A DNA stretch of 64,000 nucleotides from Nitrosococcus watsonii C-113 (lineage in GTDB: Bacteria > Pseudomonadota > Gammaproteobacteria > Nitrosococcales > Nitrosococcaceae): contig NC_014315.1 of the NCBI RefSeq assembly GCF_000143085.1, positions 1,053,001-1,117,000 on the forward strand. Direction: 5' to 3'. Position numbers and translations under genes: made by a program. Under the pieces are notes generated by a model. The model saw nothing but the letters and a program-made list of their open reading frames with translations. It had not been told where the DNA came from and searched no databases. Of the stretch, positions 13,230 through 25,500 are shown piece by piece. Every line of letters begins with the position of its first letter. Position 1 is the first letter of the stretch.

Positions 13230-13716
13230 GGGAGGTAGAAAAAAAGTTAAAATCTGTTGCATTTTTATGCTTTTACTTTTTTCTCTACCGGTCCCTCTCA
13301 TCAAGGACGCCTCGACCATAGGGCATGGTGCGGCGCTGACCGAACGTGAGGCTACTTCATAGCCTTACCAAAAAAATCTAAGAATCAATCTATTTCGAAA
13401 TAAAATATATTTCCAGTCAATTCGCCCATTCGCTAGCTTTAGGTTGTGCCTCATGATTATAAGTAAAAAAGTAAATACTTTTCTCAGCTTTTATCCTTCT
13501 ATTAACTTTCTTCTAGATTACACGCTTGCCTGTGGATAATTTACAGGCATACCCTTCACTCCCGTTCGTAGATAAATGTCTTAGATTCCATACGTCATAT
13601 TTGCTGTGTAGTCGCTTAGGGAAATTGCGTAGTGGTACGTATGTAATTATCTATTTTAGATATTTATAATTGCAGAATTTCATTTATTGTAGCGCTGGCT
13701 GCGAAAAGGAGAGAAT
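13230..13716. other. Intergenic region, 487 nt, no gene seen
   Basis: AT-rich spacer after the V-ATPase operon. No open frame of note, tRNA or strong terminator is recognised. A TATAAT hexamer at 13665-13670 could be a -10 box for the next gene, but there is no convincing -35 element, so it is left as a possibility. Confidence 0.6.
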
Positions 13717-14520
13717 ATGACTGTTTGGTGGTATGCTGAAGGAGGTAAAAAATCTGGTCCCATTGAAAGAGCTGATCTCATGCGACTTATTCAGGCTGGG
13801 ACGATTGGGCCAAAAACAATGCTCTGGAAGAAAGGTATGGAATCATGGCTTTCTCTCGATGAAGTTGAAGAACTACATGAACTGAAATCATCGCTACTAC
13901 CCCCCCTGCCATCCAGGGTAAGTAGCTCAATTACTTATCCTGTGGCTTCTCGCTGGCTGCGATTCTTCGCCCGTACTTTCGATCTATTTTGGGAGACTCT
14001 GTTCTTATTATTCCTACTCAGTTTTGGTCTGGGTTTTGCCTTAGCTATCCTAGACACTATATCAGGGGAACATCCTGGGGGCTTTGTTGAGTGGCTTAAT
14101 GGTCCCTTTGCGTGGATTTATAATCCATTCAGCGGGATACTGTTCGGGATGTTCTTTCTTCTCATGGCGTTAATATTGGATGCCTCTGTGTATCGGTTTA
14201 TTGGCAATACACCAGGTAAGGCATTGCTTGGATTGAAAGTGGAACTGCTCGATGGATCACCTCTAAGCTTTAGCCAGTATCTTGGCCGTAATTTCTCAGT
14301 ATGGGTGAGTGGTCTTGCTTTAGGTATTCCTTTCATCAATCTTGCCACAATGGCACGCCAAGCAGTCAGAATTGGTAGAGGACAGCCAGCAAGTTACGAT
14401 AAATCCCCAGGCTATCGTGTGTATGCCAAGCCTCTCGGATGGCAACGCTTATTGAACTTTGTCCTTGCTTTCATTGGTTTGGTTGCTGTAGAGGCAGTGT
14501 TTAAACGGTTCATCGATTGA
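13717..14520 (+). CDS. GYF_2 and RDD domain membrane protein
   Basis: The 267-residue product starts with a GYF_2-type domain (residues 1-55: WWYAEGGKKSGPIERADL, then a tryptophan-rich GMESWLSLDE), a small fold thought to bind proline-rich peptides. From about residue 75 it becomes an RDD-family integral membrane domain with three or four hydrophobic spans; the family's R and D are seen in RWLRFFARTFDLFWE and GNTPGKALLGLKVELLDG. AAAGGAGAG precedes the ATG. The role is unknown; RDD proteins are suspected transporters or envelope factors. It may be cotranscribed with the lipoprotein that follows. Confidence 0.85.
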   Translation: MTVWWYAEGGKKSGPIERADLMRLIQAGTIGPKTMLWKKGMESWLSLDEVEELHELKSSLLPPLPSRVSSSITYPVASRWLRFFARTFDLFWETLFLLFLLSFGLGFALAILDTISGEHPGGFVEWLNGPFAWIYNPFSGILFGMFFLLMALILDASVYRFIGNTPGKALLGLKVELLDGSPLSFSQYLGRNFSVWVSGLALGIPFINLATMARQAVRIGRGQPASYDKSPGYRVYAKPLGWQRLLNFVLAFIGLVAVEAVFKRFID

Positions 14521-14638
14521 AGCGTACCAATGCGGATGGTAATTCATTTTAGGAAGTTGTTAAATACCCGCCTTTCTTATTGATTTCTAAATTTAAGCAT
14601 AGAGTCATCGTCATCCTAATTTATTGAGAGATTTACCT

Positions 14639-15301
14639 ATGGAAAGAGTAATAGTTTTTTTATTTATCAGCGTTGCTTTGAACGGGTGTGCGACTGTAAA
14701 TTCAATGGCTGTAGATAAAGGGACCCGAACAGTAGACACGGCAGCTAAATCTATTGTGCTGATGACAATAGATATATTTCGCTCTGATAATAGTCGTCAT
14801 GTGCCTATCCCAATCGTCGTGAAACTCGAGAAGCCAAACGCTCAAAGCAACCAGGATCGACAGAATTTTAAGCTGGCTAAGAATACGGATGCGGTTGAAG
14901 AAAATGGCCATACTATCTACATGGCACGTATAGCGCTTGAGCCAGGTTTATATAAACTTGCTGAAGTTAGTGGCCAGGCAAACGCATTTCCATTCTATGG
15001 CACTACCTTCATGGTGCCGCTTTTACTTGACCTTGAGGTGGCGCCACACTCCGTAACTTATATTGGCCGCGTTACAGCGGAACTTTGGCCGCGGCAGGAG
15101 GGGGAGTTCCGCGCTGGCAGTATTATCCCATTAATTGAACAATCGGTAGCAGGAATCTCCACCGGAACCTGGGATATTACTGTTGATGATAGATCTGAAA
15201 AGGATATTGCGCTCTTTCGAGCCAATTACCCTGCACTTGCCACGATACCTATTAATAGTAATCCCCTTCCCTCTTTCGATCGAGCGGCGCTTCAACGGTA
15301 G
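14639..15301 (+). CDS. Predicted lipoprotein of unknown function
   Basis: The frame is open from a TTG at 14624, but the ATG at 14639 has GAGAG at a proper distance and gives a clean lipoprotein signal with the lipobox L-N-G-C near residue 18, so I use it. The mature part, about 200 residues, has no domain I recognise and is predicted mostly strand. It would be anchored in the membrane facing the periplasm. It lies 118 nt after the GYF-RDD gene on the same strand. Confidence 0.7.
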   Translation: MERVIVFLFISVALNGCATVNSMAVDKGTRTVDTAAKSIVLMTIDIFRSDNSRHVPIPIVVKLEKPNAQSNQDRQNFKLAKNTDAVEENGHTIYMARIALEPGLYKLAEVSGQANAFPFYGTTFMVPLLLDLEVAPHSVTYIGRVTAELWPRQEGEFRAGSIIPLIEQSVAGISTGTWDITVDDRSEKDIALFRANYPALATIPINSNPLPSFDRAALQR

Positions 15302-15938
15302 TTGGTGAGGTAATTAGATAGAAGACTAGCACAAGGGGGCACCCAGTTGCTGGTCATTCTTATGCAGTAATTCCGGGCCAGTTTTTTAGCTTGCTTGACC
15401 GGGTGACGGGTAAGTTAGTTTCAATGTCAAAGGTAGCTGCTTGTAGAAAATATCCAACCGACACGTATCCGTAGTATTGAAACTCAAGACCAATTAAGTT
15501 CTAATCGAAGCTGCACGTCGCAAAAAGGCGGATGCCTGTTGCCAAGGTTTTTTTAGAGAGGCTTGGTGGATATAGAATAGATAGGAAATTAATAGTGTGG
15601 TTCCTTTAATCATCTTCCATATTGGGCAAAATCGTACTCTGTTTTTAGTTCACTGTTGATTTTCATGCCCTTGCTAGAATAATATTTTCTATTATCCTAA
15701 AGTTTTTAAGCAATCTAAAACGGTCTCAGAAAATAGAGCCTAATAAGTTCTCCCCCATCCTCTATTTCAAGAAAGGGGTAGAAAATCTATAAAGTTAAAA
15801 TAAAAATTTCCTTCCATCGCTAGGAATGTTGGAGCACGCTCATGGAAATTATCTACGAGCGTGCTCCAATTAGATGCGAATACTGAAATTTTCAGTCTAT
15901 CCTATCGTGTCATCCCGTTCTCAAGTACTTCAAAATCT
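15302..15938. other. Intergenic region, 637 nt, between convergent genes
   Basis: AT-rich DNA with no convincing gene between a plus-strand lipoprotein gene and a minus-strand protease gene that converge here. The one clear structure is a 13-bp perfect inverted repeat at 15829-15869, listed separately. Confidence 0.6.
15829..15869. repeat. Perfect 13-bp inverted repeat (possible transcript end structure)
   Basis: TTGGAGCACGCTC at 15829-15841 is the exact reverse complement of GAGCGTGCTCCAA at 15857-15869, with a 15-nt loop. It lies about 70 nt beyond the stop of the minus-strand protease gene, where a terminator would be expected, but there is no T-run on either side, so it is not a standard intrinsic terminator. 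Confidence 0.6.
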
Positions 15939-18167
15939 CTAGTCTAGGAAGGTCAAACTATCCTGCACAAAAGCAGCGCAAAAAGCTACTCCTTCGTCCA
16001 CCCAGCCTTTATCAAGCATAACCCGGCGCATCGAATCCGAGCTAACAAAACGATGATTAGAATCATTGTACATCCAGCGATTATTATAGACCCGATAGAT
16101 GGGGGCAGAGTCGGCAGGACAAATACCATTAGTTGGCAACTTGGCATAGAAGGCAATATCCTCATAGGTCCATTTATCATCAGCATAGATGTTATCTGGG
16201 TTGAGCGTTTTAAGATAAGCGCAGTCCTCTGCGTTTGCTGTATAGAAATGGGAATTCGCCCCCAAAGTGTAAAACCTGCAAACAGGTACCGCGCCTTCTT
16301 CCGGTCCGGACCAGGCATAGGAGTATTTTCTGGTGTTGTACCAACCTTCCAGCCCCTCTCCACCCTGGTATAAGAGTGCCACGTCCTCTTTCGAAGCTGT
16401 TAACATGTAATGGTCAGATATAACGTTTGAAAATTCATAAACTAAACGATAATTTTTTAGAACCTCGGCAAATTCCACGGAGCGATAGGCATCGGCTATG
16501 CCGCTGCCACACATGGAGGTACCATAATCATCACAGCTACCTCCTTCGCTAAATGGCCTGCTAGCAAAGCGTAGTAGGGGATAAAGTTCTATTCCCGATA
16601 AATTTGGATTTACCGCAAGCACTAAGGAGGCGATTCCGGACACATGGGGAGCCGCCATACTCGTGCCGTGATACCACTGATAGTCATAACCTTGGGGTTC
16701 TTTAGCGCCTAGACCGATCGTGGAAAGAATTCCATCCTCCTTATGGGTATATCCTATGCCCTCGATCCATTCCCCCATATCTCCACCGGGCGCGGAAATA
16801 GCAGTACTAATATTATAAAAAGGCTGCTTATATGTGTAACCGGCTGGCTCTCCTGAGGGGTTAGTGGCGACTACGACAAAAACGTCGAAACAGTTAGCTG
16901 GAACGGAATAGAGGGCGTTGCTATTGTCCTCCCTAAATCCTTTATTGCCGGCGGCAACTATGATCGACACTCCTCGGCTTACTATTTTATCAATAGCTTG
17001 GCTATACGAGAATGGGCAGGAAAGCCCTGGGCCGCCTACGCTTAAATTAATTACTTGGGCGGGGTTAGGATTATCGGGAACACCGGGTACGGGAAGACCA
17101 GCTGCCCACATCATCCCCTCTATAATATCGCCATCAGTTCCATTACATGTCCCAAGTACCCGCACGGGCAGAATACGGGTTTTCCAGTTTACTCCAGCAA
17201 TACCATAGCCATCGTCACCGCTAGCAGCAATAATTCCTGCTACATGGGTGCCATGCCAAGAACTAGGTTCATCGTGATTCCTACTGCATTCGCCTTTATT
17301 AACCCAATCTCCAGGATCTGACGCATCGCTATCACGCCCATCCCCATCATTGGCGTGGAAGGGATTGGAAACAAAGTCATATCCCGGCAGCAGGCGGTCG
17401 GCAAACTCCGGGTGGGATAAAACGCCTGTATCCACCACCGCTACGATGGTATCAGGGGAGCCGTGAGTGATGTCCCACGCGTGAACCGCATCGATTCCTC
17501 CGATAACGCCCTCAGATTCACTCATCATATTCCACTGATCGCCAAAATTAGGATCGTTGGAAAAAGACTGGGCTTGTGCTATCGACGGCTGTGCTCGTAC
17601 CGATGAGGACTGCATTTGCACGCGCTGGTTTGCTTCAATCCAGTCAATGCTGGGAAGTTCCCTGGCGGGCTGGAGAAAGGCGTCAATGGCTTCCTTCCCT
17701 TCTTTAGGCGCTAAAAAACTAAAGACATAAGCTTCATTAACCGTTGCCCGCTCAAATATGAGTTTTTCTCCCAAGGCAGCTTCCAGCTCGGCTACCATTT
17801 CTGGCGGGGGCGGGAGATTGTCCCGAGCCAGGGCCTGGATTTCAGGGGATTTAAAGCGGACGATGACTCCTACCGCAATCGCTGGCGGTAACTGAGGGGC
17901 TTGGGAGGAAGGGGTGTCCGCTCTTGAATCAGTGTGTTCCGTGCTTTTAACAGTAGCCTCGTTGCCCGTGGAAGTATCGTGATTAATATTCAAATTTAAA
18001 GGCAGCGGCGATTTCTCCCGCAGTAGCTTCTCCATCAACCGCGATAACGCTTCATTCTTAGAGGCTGAAGGTCCTTTTTTTTCCAGGGATTGTTCAGTAG
18101 CGATGGTTGTACTTAGAATAAGACTAAAAAAGATACAAGCTCCCAGGTAAATTCTTATTTTGAACAT
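15939..18167 (-). CDS. S8 family serine peptidase (subtilase) with C-terminal DUF5648-like region
   Basis: The 742-residue product starts with a signal peptide (IYLGACIFFSLILSTTIATE). Residues of about 90-190 look like an inhibitory propeptide. The catalytic triad is complete: Asp near 246 in AVVDTGVLSHPEF, His near 305 in HGTHVAGIIAASGDDGYG, and Ser near 503 in HGTSMAAPHVSGIASL. From about residue 580 the tail carries F-Y-x-x-G/x-N-S-H-F-Y-T-type repeats resembling DUF5648, found on secreted proteins and possibly a surface- or glycan-binding part. It is probably secreted and self-activating. It stands alone on the minus strand. Confidence 0.9.
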   Translation of the reverse strand: MFKIRIYLGACIFFSLILSTTIATEQSLEKKGPSASKNEALSRLMEKLLREKSPLPLNLNINHDTSTGNEATVKSTEHTDSRADTPSSQAPQLPPAIAVGVIVRFKSPEIQALARDNLPPPPEMVAELEAALGEKLIFERATVNEAYVFSFLAPKEGKEAIDAFLQPARELPSIDWIEANQRVQMQSSSVRAQPSIAQAQSFSNDPNFGDQWNMMSESEGVIGGIDAVHAWDITHGSPDTIVAVVDTGVLSHPEFADRLLPGYDFVSNPFHANDGDGRDSDASDPGDWVNKGECSRNHDEPSSWHGTHVAGIIAASGDDGYGIAGVNWKTRILPVRVLGTCNGTDGDIIEGMMWAAGLPVPGVPDNPNPAQVINLSVGGPGLSCPFSYSQAIDKIVSRGVSIIVAAGNKGFREDNSNALYSVPANCFDVFVVVATNPSGEPAGYTYKQPFYNISTAISAPGGDMGEWIEGIGYTHKEDGILSTIGLGAKEPQGYDYQWYHGTSMAAPHVSGIASLVLAVNPNLSGIELYPLLRFASRPFSEGGSCDDYGTSMCGSGIADAYRSVEFAEVLKNYRLVYEFSNVISDHYMLTASKEDVALLYQGGEGLEGWYNTRKYSYAWSGPEEGAVPVCRFYTLGANSHFYTANAEDCAYLKTLNPDNIYADDKWTYEDIAFYAKLPTNGICPADSAPIYRVYNNRWMYNDSNHRFVSSDSMRRVMLDKGWVDEGVAFCAAFVQDSLTFLD

Positions 18168-18409
18168 TTATATTTTTCGCTTTTTAAGTTTATTGTTTAG
18201 AGTTACGTTATTTAAAGAAAGCTTATTTTTACAACTCTTGCCTATGGGTGCGCGGCTATCAGGCCCGCTATGTATTTCGCGGATCACGACTATAGACTAT
18301 AGAATTTTTTGAGACAGAAGAAAAATATTTGTTGACTTAAAAACGTTAGCTAGTATTAAAAATACTTTCCGTTGCTAGATTAACGGCTGAGCTATGACCC
18401 GTTCCGTGG

Positions 18410-19003
18410 TTAGTCATCGTTATTGTCTGGTTTGTTATGATGCTTTTTATATTGGATAGCGGTATTTCTTCTTTGGAATAATTTTTTAAGTTCAAATTTT
18501 TGCCATATGTGTTTACGCTGTTCTGAGACAGTAAGCGTGCTGGTTCCAAGCACCCAAGCCATTTCCGTGGCCTTTTGGCCATCGTCCATTAGCCGTAGCA
18601 CCGCCCGTTTCTTGGGAGATAACTTTTCGGGAGGTGGGGACGGTATAGCTTCAGATTCCAGGCGAATAAAACCGCCAAGTGGATTATCGACGATGTATTC
18701 AATTATAGATACGATTTTTCGCCAAGGCGTTTCCTTCCACAGATAGCTATGCGCGCCGGCTTGTTTTGCCTCTCTGATGTATTCTTCCTTATCTTGGTTG
18801 CTTAATATCAGCACGATTACATGGGGGAATTGGCTACGAATTTGCTCGGTTAATTGAATGCCATTCATGGCGCCGTGTATCTGGAGATCTACTATCGCCA
18901 CATGAATGCCTGGCCTGCTTCGTAGATACTGCAAAGCTTCTTCCGCTCCACTGGCTTCGGTAACGACTTTAAGCCTGGATACAGATTCCAACATAGGGCG
19001 CAA
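18410..19003 (-). pseudogene. NarL-type response regulator lacking its N-terminus
   Basis: The translated product matches the regulator encoded just upstream almost residue for residue from CRGLRPMLESVSRLKVV onward: the phosphate-accepting Asp (VAIVDLQIHG) and a LuxR-type helix-turn-helix (SPKKRAVLRLMDDGQKATE) are present. The first 20 or so residues, including the start codon and the acidic Asp cluster that binds magnesium, are missing. The nucleotide sequence jumps from a leader like the intact gene's (ATTACCTCC) straight into the coding region. Translation would need an internal TTG or ATG. Without the acidic pocket it cannot be phosphorylated normally. I treat it as a deletion product; it may still be expressed as a DNA-binding protein. 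Confidence 0.75.
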
Positions 19004-19048
19004 GCCGCGGCAAATTTGGAGGTAATATTAGCTTTATAGCCATTGTTT

Positions 19049-20128
19049 CTATTCATCTTTCTCCTGTTTAGGATCACACTGATGGTGGGGAATAGTAGCG
19101 GTTACCGTAGTGACCTGGGAGGAGGAAGTGATAGTTAATTTTCCATCCATAGCTTCCACGCGCGCTTGCATGTTGCGTATATTAAAACCACGGTTTTGAT
19201 CAGATTTTTTATGGGCTACGTTAAATTCATCACCCTCATACTCAACGGTAAGCTCAACGCGTTTGGAATCTTCGCTGTCCAGTTTTACGGATACATATCC
19301 CCTATGAACAAGTTGCTTAACATTATTTAATGCCTCTTGCGCGACTTGAAACAAAGCCGTTTTAGCCTCGGGAGATACATTATCCACCTTGCCATGGGTT
19401 CTGACATTTTCTGCTCTGCTAGTTAGGAATTTTAGGAGTCCAATTTTAAACATATGCCAATTTATGGCTATTGCTAGACGAAATATTTCAACTGGATTGT
19501 TATGACTCTTTCTGTATGGGATAGCAATCTTTAACTTTTCGAATGGTTGGTGTGCATTTTTAAGTCCAATTTTTTGCCATATATTTGTAGCTATTTTGTT
19601 GATGTTATTCAAAGCAGTTCCACGCACCAGCGCGATTTTCTTGTGCGATAGACTATCACCCATCAGCCATAGCACTTCCCGCTCACTGCAAGTTAACTTT
19701 CTAAGTGGAGAATCGGGTGGTAGGGGTGGTACACCGTCGGGCGGATTATCGACGAGGTTTTCAATTGCAGACACGATTTCTCGCCCGTCGGTTTCTTTCA
19801 ACAGATAGTTACGCGCGCCGGCTTGGGTTGCTTCTCTGACGTACTCTTCTTGATCCGCGTTGGTGAATATTAAAACAGCCACATGGGAGAATTCAGTACG
19901 AATCTGTTTGGTTAATTGAATGCCATTGGTGTCGCCGTGTATCTGGATATCTACTATCGCTACATTAATATCAGGGTTGCTTCGTAGATACTGCAGAGCT
20001 TCTTCCGCCCCCCTGGCCTCGGCAACGACTTTAAGCCTGGATACAGAGTCCAGCATAGGGCGCAAGCCGCGGCGTACCCAAGGATCATCATCAACAAGCA
20101 TTATTTTAATAGGTGTCATGGTGTGCAT
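19049..20128 (-). CDS. Response regulator fused to a NarL-family kinase ATPase domain
   Basis: Residues 1-120 are a receiver domain with Asp13-15 and the phosphate-accepting Asp near 60 (NVAIVDIQIHGDTNG). Residues of about 145-205 are a LuxR-type helix-turn-helix (CSEREVLWLMGDSL). From about residue 215 it changes into the C-terminal part of a NarL-family kinase: the QVAQEALNNVKQ N-box and RGFNIRNMQARVEAM G-box are kept, but the dimerisation helix with the phosphorylated His (LHDG) is absent. The tail aligns with the kinase gene next door. This order, regulator then headless kinase, is what a deletion between two tandem kinase-regulator pairs would leave. The VEYEGDEFNV stretch, where the normal kinase has an IEDDGVGFNV motif, has lost the G1 glycine. 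Confidence 0.85.
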   Translation of the reverse strand: MHTMTPIKIMLVDDDPWVRRGLRPMLDSVSRLKVVAEARGAEEALQYLRSNPDINVAIVDIQIHGDTNGIQLTKQIRTEFSHVAVLIFTNADQEEYVREATQAGARNYLLKETDGREIVSAIENLVDNPPDGVPPLPPDSPLRKLTCSEREVLWLMGDSLSHKKIALVRGTALNNINKIATNIWQKIGLKNAHQPFEKLKIAIPYRKSHNNPVEIFRLAIAINWHMFKIGLLKFLTSRAENVRTHGKVDNVSPEAKTALFQVAQEALNNVKQLVHRGYVSVKLDSEDSKRVELTVEYEGDEFNVAHKKSDQNRGFNIRNMQARVEAMDGKLTITSSSQVTTVTATIPHHQCDPKQEKDE

Positions 20129-20141
20129 AGGAGGTAAATAA

Positions 20142-21497
20142 TTAATGACAGGGAATAGTAGCGGTTACCGTAGTGCCCTGGGAGGAGGAAGTGATAATTA
20201 ATTTTCCACCGATTGCTTCCACTCGCTCTTGCATATTGCGTATACCAAAGCCGCGGTCTGGATCGCGCTTGATGCGATTCACATTGAAGCCGACGCCATC
20301 ATCTTCGATGGTAAGCTTAACGCGTTTGGAATCACCTTCCAGTTTTACGGATACATGCTCTGAATGAGCACATTGCTTAACATTATTTAATGCTTCTTGC
20401 GCGACTCGATACAAGGCGATCTTAGCCTCGGTGGATACCTGATCCACCTCGCCATGGGTACTGAACTCGGCTGCTATGTCAGCATCCTCCATGTTAAGCG
20501 AAAGCTGCTCTATAGCTACTTTTAGGCCAAGATCAAGAGCGATGGGGTGCAGGTCGCGCACAATCCGGCGAAGTTCGGCTAGGGTATCTTTCAGTTTTGT
20601 GGGGAGATCTTCTAGCGTCATGTGGATGGAGGTAGATTGATCATTATTTGATAATCTAATGAGGATGGCCTCAATCATGAACTTTATACCTGCTAGCATA
20701 TTCATCACGCCATCGTGCAGGTCTCTGGCTATCCTGGCGCGTTCTTCTTCCTGGGCATTTACGATCCGCTGGGCTAATAGTTTGAGTTGGGTATCCGCTC
20801 TAATATTGATCGCTAGACTTAAAAGTATTATCAGGATGATTACCAAGAAGGCGATAAAAACTATCCAGAATGTTGTATCGTTAATGTTATCCCGAACCTG
20901 GGAGTTAACTTTTTCCAACGCCCGATCAATATCATCAAGGTAAACACCCGTGCCCAGCATCCATCCCCATTTGGGCAGCGCTATGACATAGGCTCTTTTA
21001 GGTTCAACGTTATGGCTGGAAGGCTTCTTCCAGACATAGTCTTCGAACCCGCCTCCGTGTCGCGCACGGTTAATGAGATCCTGGATGACTAACTTGCCAT
21101 TAGTATCCCTTATTTCCCATTGATTGGTTCCAACCAGATTCCACTGGCGCGCATGGACAAGGCTATTGCCTTCATAGTCATAGATAAAGAAATAGCCATC
21201 CTCACCATAATCCAGCTTGGCTAAAATAGTTTTAGCCTCCTCCATTGCAGCGGCATCTGTTCGCCCTGAATCATAAAGATGGGCAATTGAACGCCTTGCC
21301 AGCGCGATGTAGTTTTTTAACTCTGAGTCTTTGCTAGCAAGGTAGGTTTCTTTAATAATTTCTTGCTGTTGTTGCTCAAGCACAATGGCTTGATGGCGTA
21401 CCGTATATGCAATGATGGAAGCCGCGGTTATGAGCGGCACGATTGCAAGCAAAATAATTTTCCATCTTGATTTTATTTCTGGCCATAATTTTTTCAA
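20142..21497 (-). CDS. Cache-domain sensor histidine kinase, NarL family
   Basis: The 451-residue product has a first membrane span (residues 12-31), an extracytoplasmic single-Cache domain (about 35-200; YGEDGYFFIYDYEGNSLVHA and KWGWMLGTGVYLDDID are typical), and a second span (about 208-230). Then comes a HisKA_3 dimerisation helix with the phosphorylated His near 261 (RIARDLHDGVMNMLAGI) and a HATPase domain with N-box EALNNVKQ and G-box GFGIRNMQERVEAIGG. It would sense a small ligand in the periplasm and phosphorylate the adjacent regulator. It is the first gene of the three-gene minus-strand operon and the only intact kinase there. Confidence 0.92.
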   Translation of the reverse strand: MKKLWPEIKSRWKIILLAIVPLITAASIIAYTVRHQAIVLEQQQQEIIKETYLASKDSELKNYIALARRSIAHLYDSGRTDAAAMEEAKTILAKLDYGEDGYFFIYDYEGNSLVHARQWNLVGTNQWEIRDTNGKLVIQDLINRARHGGGFEDYVWKKPSSHNVEPKRAYVIALPKWGWMLGTGVYLDDIDRALEKVNSQVRDNINDTTFWIVFIAFLVIILIILLSLAINIRADTQLKLLAQRIVNAQEEERARIARDLHDGVMNMLAGIKFMIEAILIRLSNNDQSTSIHMTLEDLPTKLKDTLAELRRIVRDLHPIALDLGLKVAIEQLSLNMEDADIAAEFSTHGEVDQVSTEAKIALYRVAQEALNNVKQCAHSEHVSVKLEGDSKRVKLTIEDDGVGFNVNRIKRDPDRGFGIRNMQERVEAIGGKLIITSSSQGTTVTATIPCH

Positions 21498-21666
21498 TGG
21501 TTAGTGTACGCAACTATTTAATAGATGTTTATACCTACGACTAGGTATAGCCGGAGAGTTATTTTTAAGGGATACTCATCATAACTAACAGGCAAGGGAG
21601 GACAAAGGTAATTATTTAAGAAGACCTTGTATTGATGGTGGAATAGTTTTTCCGGGGAGGAAGGTA

Positions 21667-21870
21667 ATGATGAATCTCTTTAACAAAATTACTTTGTTTA
21701 TATTATGCATTGCTGTTTTTATCATCAGTGTGCTGTTGCTGATTATCCTCTTACAGAGCAGTGAGTCGATTATCGCTGTTTTAATCAAGTTTGCTGATGA
21801 TCTCCAAATTCAATGGATAACCATAGTCATTTCAACTTCAGAGAAGAATAATGTATCGTTTTATCAATAA
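21667..21870 (+). CDS. Small single-span membrane protein upstream of cstA
   Basis: The 67-residue frame has one strong hydrophobic segment (ITLFILCIAVFIISVLLLII) and a very good ribosome site (GGGGAGGAAGG) before its ATG. Its end overlaps the cstA start by 20 nt in another frame, so the two would be translationally coupled. I do not recognise a family. It could be a leader peptide or a small transporter accessory protein; a chance frame is possible, but the ribosome site argues against it. Confidence 0.55.
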   Translation: MMNLFNKITLFILCIAVFIISVLLLIILLQSSESIIAVLIKFADDLQIQWITIVISTSEKNNVSFYQ

Positions 21871-23944
21871 ACTTTCCTGGATCATACTAGCTCTCATCGG
21901 TGCGTGGGCGTTCGGTATCATAGCCTTACAACGTGGTGAATCTATCGGCGCCATTTGGATTGTAATTGCTGCGGTTTGCATTTATTTAATCGCCTACCGT
22001 TTTTACAGCCTCTTTATTGCCGATCGTATACTAGAGCTAGACCCGGCACGCAAAACTCCCGCCCATAAATTCCACGATGGTCTGGATTATGTGCCCACTC
22101 ATAAATACGTCTTGTTTGGACATCACTTTGCCGCTATTGCCGGGGCCGGTCCCTTGGTCGGCCCGATATTGGCGGCGCAGATGGGTTATATGCCGGGCTT
22201 ATTGTGGCTTTTAGCAGGGGTTGTCTTCGCTGGCGCGGTGCAGGATTTTATCGTGCTATTTATTTCGATGCGGCGCGATGGTCGCTCGTTGGGCGATCTT
22301 ATCAAATCCGAGCTAGGAGAAGTGCCAGGTATGATTGCTTTATTTGGCACCTTTTTTATCATGGTGATTCTGTTGGCGGTGCTGGCGCTCATTGTTGTCA
22401 AAGCCCTTGCTGAGTCACCTTGGGGAGCCTTTACCGTTGCCGCTACTATCCCCATTGCTTTATTGATGGGCGTTTATACCCGTTATCTCCGCCCAGGCTG
22501 TATCGGCGAGGTCTCGCTACTTGGTTTTGCCTTGCTGATGATGGCGATAGTAGGCGGACAGTACGTGCAGGAAATTCCCACCCTGGCTTCCCTGTTCACC
22601 TTATCCGGCGAGCAGTTGACATGGATGCTGATCGGTTACGGCTTTGTGGCTTCAATATTACCGGTCTGGCTATTGCTGGCGCCGCGGGATTATTTATCCA
22701 CTTTTCTAAAAATTGGTACTATTACCGGTTTAGCTATCGGTATTATCTTCATTTCCCCAGAGCTTAAAATGCCGGCCTTTACGCAATTTGTGGATGGCTC
22801 TGGCCCGGTTTGGTCCGGGAGCTTATTCCCCTTCCTGTTTATCACCATTGCTTGTGGCGCGGTATCCGGTTTTCATGCTCTTATCGCTTCGGGTACCACC
22901 CCCAAGATGATCAGCAATGAGAGTCATGCCCGCTTTATCGGCTACGGCGCCATGTTGATGGAATCCTTCGTCGCTATCATGGCTTTGGTGGCCGCTTCCA
23001 TCATTGAGCCGGGGATATATTTTGCAATGAACAGCCCGGCCGCCCTGATTGGCAGTACTGCGGAATCGGCTGCGCAAGCCATTTCCCAATGGGGTTTTTA
23101 TATTACCCCCGAGATGTTGACTCAAACCGCGCAGGATGTAGGCGAGCATACTATTATTTCCCGCGCCGGCGGCGCGCCGACTTTGGCGGTCGGCATGGCG
23201 CATATTCTGTCGGAATTTATCGGTGGTAAGATGATGATGGCGTTTTGGTATCACTTCGCAATTCTGTTTGAGGCGCTTTTCATCCTGACTGCGGTTGATG
23301 CGGGTACCCGTGCTGGACGTTTTATGCTACAGGACTTGCTTGGCGCTTTCATCCCGCCCATGAAGCGCACCGATTCGATTGCTGCCGGTCTTATCGCCAC
23401 GGCTCTTTGCGTCGCTGGCTGGGGCTATTTTCTCTACCAAGGTGTGGTTGATCCGCTAGGTGGAATTAATACCTTATGGCCGCTATTTGGAATTTCCAAT
23501 CAGATGCTGGCTGGTATTGCCCTAATTCTCGCCACCTGTGTCTTGTTTAAGATGAAGCGTGATCGTTTTACCTGGGTTACTCTCGTGCCCACGGCGTGGA
23601 TTTTAATCTGCACACTGACGGCTGGTTGGCAAAAGATATTTCACGCTAATCCGCGTATCGGATTCCTGGCCCATGCCAATACCTACAAGGTCGCGCTTGC
23701 TGAGGGCAAATTACTCGCGCCAGCCCGGTCGATAGAGCAAATGCGGCAAGTAATTTTTAACGACTATTTGGATGCGGCGCTCGCTAGCCTATTTATGCTG
23801 GTCGTTATCAGTATGTGTGTATTCGGCATCAAAACGATTCTGCTCGCACGTGCTACACGCAGCCCCACCGCCCAAGAGGCGCCCTTTGAAATATTGCCCA
23901 TTGATGGGCTGTCTAGCACGGATGGGTTCAGCCATGTTAAATAA
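21851..23944 (+). CDS. cstA: Carbon starvation protein CstA family peptide/pyruvate transporter
   Basis: The 697-residue protein has some sixteen hydrophobic spans and the family's N-terminal signature HKYVLFGHHFAAIAGAGPLVGP, followed by GAVQDFIVLFISMRRDGRSLG and the later SGFHALIASGTTPKMISNE stretch. CstA-type proteins carry pyruvate or peptides across the inner membrane, often under starvation control. A YbdD/YjiX-type small protein is encoded immediately downstream with overlap, the usual partner arrangement. The divergent sensor kinase locus next to it could regulate it, since BtsS/YpdA-type kinases control cstA-family genes, although this kinase is of the NarL type. Confidence 0.94.
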   Translation: MYRFINKLSWIILALIGAWAFGIIALQRGESIGAIWIVIAAVCIYLIAYRFYSLFIADRILELDPARKTPAHKFHDGLDYVPTHKYVLFGHHFAAIAGAGPLVGPILAAQMGYMPGLLWLLAGVVFAGAVQDFIVLFISMRRDGRSLGDLIKSELGEVPGMIALFGTFFIMVILLAVLALIVVKALAESPWGAFTVAATIPIALLMGVYTRYLRPGCIGEVSLLGFALLMMAIVGGQYVQEIPTLASLFTLSGEQLTWMLIGYGFVASILPVWLLLAPRDYLSTFLKIGTITGLAIGIIFISPELKMPAFTQFVDGSGPVWSGSLFPFLFITIACGAVSGFHALIASGTTPKMISNESHARFIGYGAMLMESFVAIMALVAASIIEPGIYFAMNSPAALIGSTAESAAQAISQWGFYITPEMLTQTAQDVGEHTIISRAGGAPTLAVGMAHILSEFIGGKMMMAFWYHFAILFEALFILTAVDAGTRAGRFMLQDLLGAFIPPMKRTDSIAAGLIATALCVAGWGYFLYQGVVDPLGGINTLWPLFGISNQMLAGIALILATCVLFKMKRDRFTWVTLVPTAWILICTLTAGWQKIFHANPRIGFLAHANTYKVALAEGKLLAPARSIEQMRQVIFNDYLDAALASLFMLVVISMCVFGIKTILLARATRSPTAQEAPFEILPIDGLSSTDGFSHVK

Positions 23945-24134
23945 AATCAACCAACTCAGTCATTATCTCGGACAGAGTATGCGGTTAATGGTCGGTATGC
24001 CTGACTACGGCGCTTATCTTACGCATATGCGGGAGGTTCACCCGGATCAGCCGGTAATGACTTATGATGAATTCTTTCGGGAGCGGCAAGAAGCGCGGTA
24101 CGGCGGTAACGGCAAAATTGGCCGCTGCTGTTAA
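23934..24134 (+). CDS. YbdD/YjiX family small protein
   Basis: The 66-residue product starting at ATG 23934 overlaps the end of cstA by 11 nt; an in-frame ATG at 23922 is an alternative start. It shows the full family pattern: LGQSMRLMVGMPDYGAYLTH, then H-P-D-Q-P-V-M-T-Y-D-E-F-F-R-E-R-Q-E-A-R-Y and a cysteine pair at the C-terminus (GRCC). This small cytoplasmic protein is encoded after CstA/BtsT transporters in many bacteria and is thought to act with them. Confidence 0.93.
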   Translation: MLNKINQLSHYLGQSMRLMVGMPDYGAYLTHMREVHPDQPVMTYDEFFRERQEARYGGNGKIGRCC

Positions 24135-24222
24135 TTTCATCTTTCAAATAGCGCGGTTCAGCAGGCCCTGATTGAGATGTTATTTAAGTGCCAGGCATAC
24201 AGCAGGGTTGACTTACTTTCGT

Positions 24223-25026: not shown

Positions 25027-25401
25027 TTAACTGGTGCGCAACAGGGCCACCGCAAGCAATATCCAGGCAATAATGAAGCTGCTTCCCCCTAAAGGGGCAA
25101 TAGCGCCTAGCCAGCCTGTTCCCGTGAGCGCCAATACATAGAGACTGCCAGAGAAAAGGAGGATACCCGCAAGCATCAAGCCTCCCGACCATTTGATTAA
25201 GGCGCTGCTTCCTAGCCAATGGGAAATCATGCCAATTAAAATGAGGCCCAAGGCATGATACATGTGGTATTCAACACCGGTTTGCCAGACTTCCAGCATG
25301 CGGGGCTCAAGTTTGGTCCGTAGTCCATGGGCGCCGAAAGCGCCGAAAGCAATACCCAAGGCAGCGATGAAGGCGCCTGTGCTGATAAGAAATTTAGCCA
25401 C
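25027..25401 (-). CDS. DUF423 family small membrane protein
   Basis: The frame is open further upstream, but the GTG at 25401 is preceded by AAGGAC and starts the family's normal N-terminus (AKFLISTGAFIAALGIAFGAFGAHGL), giving 124 residues. Four hydrophobic spans are visible and the central WQTGVEYHMYHALGLI segment is diagnostic of DUF423 (YgdD-like). It is an inner-membrane protein of unknown function. It lies between msrA and a PAP2 phosphatase on the same strand. Confidence 0.88.
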   Translation of the reverse strand: MAKFLISTGAFIAALGIAFGAFGAHGLRTKLEPRMLEVWQTGVEYHMYHALGLILIGMISHWLGSSALIKWSGGLMLAGILLFSGSLYVLALTGTGWLGAIAPLGGSSFIIAWILLAVALLRTS

Positions 25402-25500
25402 GATGATTGTGTCCTTCCCAAGAAAATTTTTAAGGCAGCTATGCGCTTTTATACTGCCTTTAAGGGGGTGAGAGTTTAACAAAAGGCGGTGCCTTTGTCT

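Follow-up and report, generated by a model that had tools for sequence, protein, structure and literature searches.

In Nitrosococcus watsonii, a sensor histidine kinase, an open reading frame (ORF) that runs from a response regulator into the ATPase half of a kinase, and a second regulator lacking its N-terminus lie in tandem on the minus strand, beside a divergent cstA gene. On balance, the locus appears to be a decaying MctSR-like system that underwent one partial tandem duplication, and the fusion ORF a by-product in which the receiver, at most, still works. The ancestral state would have been an MctSR-like pair, composed of an sCache_2 kinase that probably senses pyruvate and a NarL/LuxR-type regulator, adjacent to the divergent cstA. 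The signalling branch would now be decaying, with cstA staying intact.

Organization of the locus

Coordinates refer to the window, the whole 64,000-nucleotide stretch that was analysed. The genes discussed below are as follows.

20142..21497, minus strand: intact MctS-like sensor histidine kinase, 451 aa, TTG start; sCache_2, HisKA_3 and HATPase_c domains
19049..20128, minus strand: fusion ORF, 359 aa; complete receiver, degenerate LuxR-type helix-turn-helix (HTH), linker and degenerate HATPase_c
18410..19003, minus strand: headless regulator, the last ORF, 197 aa counted from an internal TTG; its receiver lacks the first strand and the acid pocket, and its GerE is weak
21851..23944, plus strand: cstA, CstA-family transporter, divergent from the kinase
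23772..24134, plus strand: ORF with a YbdD-type small protein; residues 59–120 (the C-terminal part) match Pfam Sel_put, which we take to be the YbdD family

A reading made from the sequence alone had proposed this order of kinase, regulator–ATPase fusion and regulator without an N-terminus. The ORFs and their Pfam domains agree with it, and the fusion does exist as an ORF. The numbers of promoter-like sites (11; shuffles 8.8 ± 2.8) and terminator-like sites (3; shuffles 4.0 ± 2.3) show no excess.

The kinase carries sCache_2 (138.9 bits), HisKA_3 (48.6 bits) and HATPase_c (47.3 bits) domains, all above the Pfam cutoffs. Its best NCBIfam model is MctS (NF052443, an equivalog), but the score of 418.8 bits lies below the curated cutoff of 700, and we therefore name it MctS-like only. 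Translation starts at a TTG, and the 28 bases before it contain nothing resembling AGGAG, while the kinase of G004, a member of the same family from another genus, starts at an ATG preceded by AGGAG. The sensor domain is related to structure 4EXO, which is reported to bind pyruvate through contacts with Y96, F98, H109, F148, W150 and K161 (PMC12415202). Alignment places Y102, F104, H115, Y154, W156 and K167 of the kinase at all six of these positions, with one Phe represented by Tyr. The same set (Tyr, Phe, His, Tyr in place of the 4EXO Phe, Trp and Lys) occurs in seven of the seven aligned kinases. Tyr at the fourth place is also found in the L-lactate sensor K1, and His at the third place goes with pyruvate (PMC12415202). 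Judged from its sequence, the kinase probably senses pyruvate rather than L-lactate. An MctS-like, probably pyruvate-sensing kinase thus adjoins cstA in an autotrophic ammonia oxidiser.

Single pairs and related systems

A single kinase–regulator pair is present in G004 (locus L037). As in N. watsonii, cstA and a subtilase are nearby; the kinase is 70% identical and the regulator about 50% (52% over residues 1–215). In contrast, the G004 pair is unduplicated, and its cassette is inverted relative to cstA and the subtilase. When L037:6950–14156 is compared with window 15939–23944, an additional ORF of 266 aa lies between the regulator and cstA in G004.

The kinase has no match at E values up to 0.001 in three congeners or in G005, a further family member. 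For the fusion, matches in the congeners reach only E of about 4e-6, the level of unrelated regulators. A contig search with seven aligned kinases detected at least 571 relatives, and the best 80 were used as named loci; a contig scan with the kinase alone gave 23 stretches that matched the pattern, none of which encoded a relative. These best 80 relatives are all from Burkholderiales by their titles, a placement that we assume from the names. The regulator lies directly downstream of the kinase in 79 of the 80 named loci. In 45 of the 80, cstA is upstream and divergent as in N. watsonii; it is downstream in eight and absent from the available stretch, which is short in some cases, in 27.

Conservation of the same fusion in other genomes, named by the sequence-only reading as evidence for a selected protein, was not seen. 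The fusion is absent among the matches listed in the three congeners, G004 and the rest of the 58 other relatives, and it is absent from the 80 named loci, where two loci flagged by script (L071 and L075) are kinases with a stop before the regulator. Among the matches listed in 368 other genomes of the class (E 1e-10, at most five candidates per genome), no fusion was seen, a few longer open frames aside. Plasmid relatives of the pair reach a kinase identity of up to 42.7% among the 20 matches listed. Two of 10 listed plasmid matches were looked up as candidate regulator–kinase joins, and both were separate regulator and kinase genes.

Several known systems resemble the proposed ancestral pair. 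MctS/MctR of Rhizobium regulates the monocarboxylate permease gene mctP (PMC9100948). The two systems share a Cache sensor kinase and a LuxR-type regulator adjoining a pyruvate/monocarboxylate transporter gene; here, by contrast, the transporter is cstA rather than mctP, the regulator is partly duplicated and degenerate, and the scores fall below the MctS and MctR cutoffs. In Paraburkholderia and Pseudomonas mandelii (L039, L041 and L042), cstA-ybdD is divergent from a cache kinase–regulator operon as in N. watsonii, with kinases 40–44% identical, but the pair is single and intact and there is no fusion. E. coli BtsS/BtsR is likewise reported to be a pyruvate-sensing pair and to control the CstA-family transporter BtsT; however, it is of the LytS/LytTR type, with sensor and output domains other than those found here. 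The titles found in a literature search on domain census and partial duplication of two-component genes contained nothing on point.

Duplication history

The repeated segments and the stretches around them are as follows.

19492..20530, minus strand: copy 1 of the duplicated segment (19492–20478 by BLASTN, to 20530 by a weak linker match)
18427..19482, minus strand: copy 2 of the duplicated segment (18427–19418 by BLASTN, to 19482 by a weak linker match)
19419..19491, minus strand: fusion linker in the area of the duplication junction, of uncertain origin
19012..19087, minus strand: 76-nt stretch that shows no detectable similarity to the facing stretch at 20074–20150; it includes the fusion's end and sits at the expected head of the last regulator

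Self-BLASTN of the region revealed one long direct repeat, in which 725 of 1007 columns are identical (72%) with 35 gap columns (E 2e-175), a similarity far above chance. The 3' part of the kinase and the fusion regulator (copy 1) pair with the ATPase tail of the fusion and the last regulator (copy 2), respectively. The resemblances of the tail to the intact kinase and of the last regulator to the fusion regulator, which the sequence-only reading had noticed, thus hold in a nucleotide alignment, and together with the single pair in G004 this repeat establishes the duplication.

The duplication would have been a single tandem event of about 1.05 kb, extending from just after the HisKA_3 domain of the kinase to the end of the regulator. 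Its products would be the intact kinase, a first regulator continuing at its C-terminus into an additional ATPase domain, and another copy of the regulator. In this way, a regulator–kinase fusion could be created in one step by a partial tandem duplication, and the locus would also display the later fate of such a fusion. The sequence-only reading had proposed a tandem duplication followed by a deletion; its first part stands, and the separate deletion is possible but one step beyond need. A history of this longer kind, in which the full pair was duplicated and a separate deletion joined regulator 1 to kinase 2, or in which there was more than one round of duplication, strikes us as rather unlikely, although it would give an identical end product and is compatible with any reading of the present function. 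It requires more events, and the sensor half of the second kinase has left no trace in the region, which was found once in the genome search. The linker bears on this choice, as it could be the remnant of another regulator copy.

A one-step duplication predicts a linker similar to the kinase sequence immediately upstream of the repeat. At the collinear offset, the best 39-base ungapped match is 24/39 (19444–19482 versus 20492–20530), which was reached by one of 300 shuffles. Compared free of position with the expected kinase region, the linker scored at a level reached by 63 of 1000 shuffles, or by 142, 167 and 1032 of 2000 under three scorings; against the whole kinase, the alignment score was reached by 236 of 500. 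The position-free tests fit the HTH region of the regulator better: one of 500 simple shuffles, 27 of 3000 dinucleotide shuffles and, under three scorings, 15, 19 and 33 of 2000 were as good, and against the last regulator 14 of 500 were. At the protein level, neither kinase (629/1000) nor regulator (617/1000) origin is supported. The linker evidence for a one-step duplication is accordingly weak and mixed. We retain the kinase origin, as the prior hypothesis and the collinear one, but regard it as uncertain on these alignments.

A deletion of roughly 55 nt had been proposed at the start of the second regulator. No such deletion is visible; instead, 77 nt of copy 1 (20074–20150) face 76 nt of copy 2 (19012–19087) between similar flanks, and the two stretches lack detectable similarity (their score was matched by 721 of 2000 shuffles; in local alignments under three scorings, 357, 1050 and 1761 of 3000 are as good). 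A replacement, or a deletion with an insertion, may fit these facing stretches as well as a 55-nt deletion. As to the source of the 76-nt stretch, for 71 of its bases the rest of the genome offers only matches of 14 and 15 bases. An AGGAG-ATG at 19049–19065 overlaps the fusion stop, but its frame differs from that of the last regulator's receiver.

Domains of the fusion and the last regulator

The fusion had been described as a receiver, a DNA-binding domain and an ATPase domain. The receiver is complete: Pfam Response_reg matches over model positions 1–111 of 111 with 79.8 bits, compared with 73.2 bits for the single-pair regulator of G004. For the DNA-binding part, Pfam lists no GerE match in the fusion at E values up to 1; the HTH region is still recognizable by weaker means, through the NCBIfam MctR model over residues 6–191 and solved regulators over residues ~7–193. 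The tail does match HATPase_c above the cutoff (31.2 versus 26.4 bits) but is degenerate.

Conserved columns, 43 for the receiver and 29 for the HTH, were defined by at least 95% conservation among 78 of 79 regulators. The fusion keeps 29/43 receiver columns, including D13, D14, D60 and K111, and 9/29 HTH columns, and the single-pair regulator keeps 31/43 and 19/29, respectively. The difference between receiver and HTH retention gives p 0.004 within the fusion and p 0.61 in the single-pair regulator. The last regulator keeps 24/43 receiver columns, with nine missing, and 9/29 HTH columns. With an alternative column set from 55 of the 79 regulators, retention is 38/73 in the fusion, 49/73 in the single-pair regulator and 33/73 in the last regulator. 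In the last regulator, the Response_reg match begins at model position 17, leaving the receiver incomplete without the first 16 positions, and GerE scores 24.5 bits (cutoff 23.5). Its sole common start codon is the internal TTG. MctR is its best NCBIfam model at 70.6 bits, and both regulators are far below the cutoff of 300.

For the ATPase domain, 38 columns at least 95% conserved were taken from 72 of 80 kinases, eight being left out by a length or motif filter. The intact kinase keeps 29/38, the G004 kinase 30/38 and the fusion tail 22/38. The tail carries the changes D85Y, G89E and G104N at positions that both intact kinases keep; we take these residues to belong to the motifs named G1 (DxGxG) and the G2 glycine. 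Thus, the G1 Asp and two motif glycines are gone from the tail, despite its Pfam match above the cutoff, which makes nucleotide input unlikely. The earlier suggestion of a self-contained regulator with nucleotide input, whose receiver, DNA-binding and ATPase domains cooperate, finds some encouragement in the single open frame of 359 aa with receiver and HATPase_c matches, the HTH region that still aligns to MctR and solved regulators, and a predicted regulator fold. AlphaFold2 gave a mean pLDDT of 82.5 for the regulator part, with 10-residue blocks at 72–96 in the receiver and 71–85 in the HTH; this fold says little, because the alignment itself carries it. In view of the lost ATP-binding residues, the unlisted GerE and the change of 20 of the 29 HTH columns, we consider such a regulator highly improbable, and the fusion is unlikely to sense nucleotides.

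Constraint on the duplicated copies

A codon model was applied to three sequences, namely copy 1 (which includes the ATPase part of the intact kinase), copy 2 and G004. In the pooled data, omega is 0.21 on the G004 branch, 0.52 on copy 1 and 0.88 on copy 2, and a single omega for all branches is rejected (lnL −2743.60 versus −2733.31). An omega of 1 common to both copies is mildly rejected in the pooled data (p 0.023) but not for the whole regulator (p 0.28) or the whole ATPase (p 0.26). By part, omega is 0.86 in copy 1 and 0.99 in copy 2 for the linker plus HTH, and 0.40 in the kinase and 0.78 in the fusion tail for the ATPase. The fusion receiver has an omega of 0.29 (p 0.059 versus 1), which becomes 0.36 (p 0.017) when copy 2 is set to 1, from 104 codons of one genome; left free, the copy 2 receiver is estimated at 12.18, a meaningless value owing to a near-zero branch. 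In pairwise comparison with G004, the values are 0.237 for the kinase and 0.058 for cstA. Constraint is therefore relaxed in both copies after the duplication, and least in the fusion receiver.

The copies are about 0.43 synonymous-like substitutions per site apart, roughly twice the divergence of three flanking genes from the congener G002 (pooled 0.21, range 0.05–0.35), yet their frames are open. In neutral simulations without indels (600 runs each), the frame stayed open in 0.7–2.5% of runs for the fusion regulator, 1.7–4.7% for the last regulator and 14–22% for the ATPase tail. Frames open beyond this expectation imply that some constraint acted at least part of the time, and it most likely fell on the receiver.

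This constraint raises the alternative that the fusion is a retained receiver protein, which the kinase phosphorylates as a phosphate sink or protein-contact module, with the HTH and the ATPase tail as inert cargo. The retained receiver columns with all four residues named above, a Response_reg score exceeding that of the single-pair regulator, the receiver omega of 0.29–0.36 and the unexpectedly long-open regulator frames are consistent with it. However, the omega comes from a short segment in a single genome, the fusion appears in no further genome among the relatives or the 368-genome matches listed, and the translation signals of the kinase are weak; we regard this alternative as possible but on the unlikely side. 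That selection has kept the fusion as a receiver-only partner of the kinase, serving as a phosphate sink or decoy whose dead ATPase domain might associate with domains of the kinase itself, seems doubtful to us. Were its receiver selected, the fusion would exemplify in nature the conversion of a regulator into a phosphate sink. If the receiver-only reading is true, signalling from pyruvate would stop at a protein that has lost its control over DNA, the second regulator being headless. We favour the by-product reading, one of the two outcomes envisaged earlier, subject to the apparent constraint on the receiver (omega 0.29–0.36, 29/43 columns); at most, this receiver may still take phosphate from the kinase.

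Genomic setting of cstA

CstA matches Pfam PF02554 with 874.5 bits (cutoff 27) and scores 1112 against NCBIfam PRK15015 (cutoff 1188). A segment of about 11 kb (window 13231–24217), containing two ORFs, a subtilase with DUF5648, the regulators, the kinase, cstA and the YbdD-type ORF, is absent at the matching site of G002, where its flanks are 87 bases apart. The flanks of the locus match G002 at ~90–94%; the average identity of N. watsonii and N. oceani is reported as 89.3% (PMC7285500). A small flanking gene (window 25027–25416) has a synonymous-like distance to G002 of 0.05, versus 0.19 and 0.35 for two neighbours, perhaps reflecting a recent exchange.
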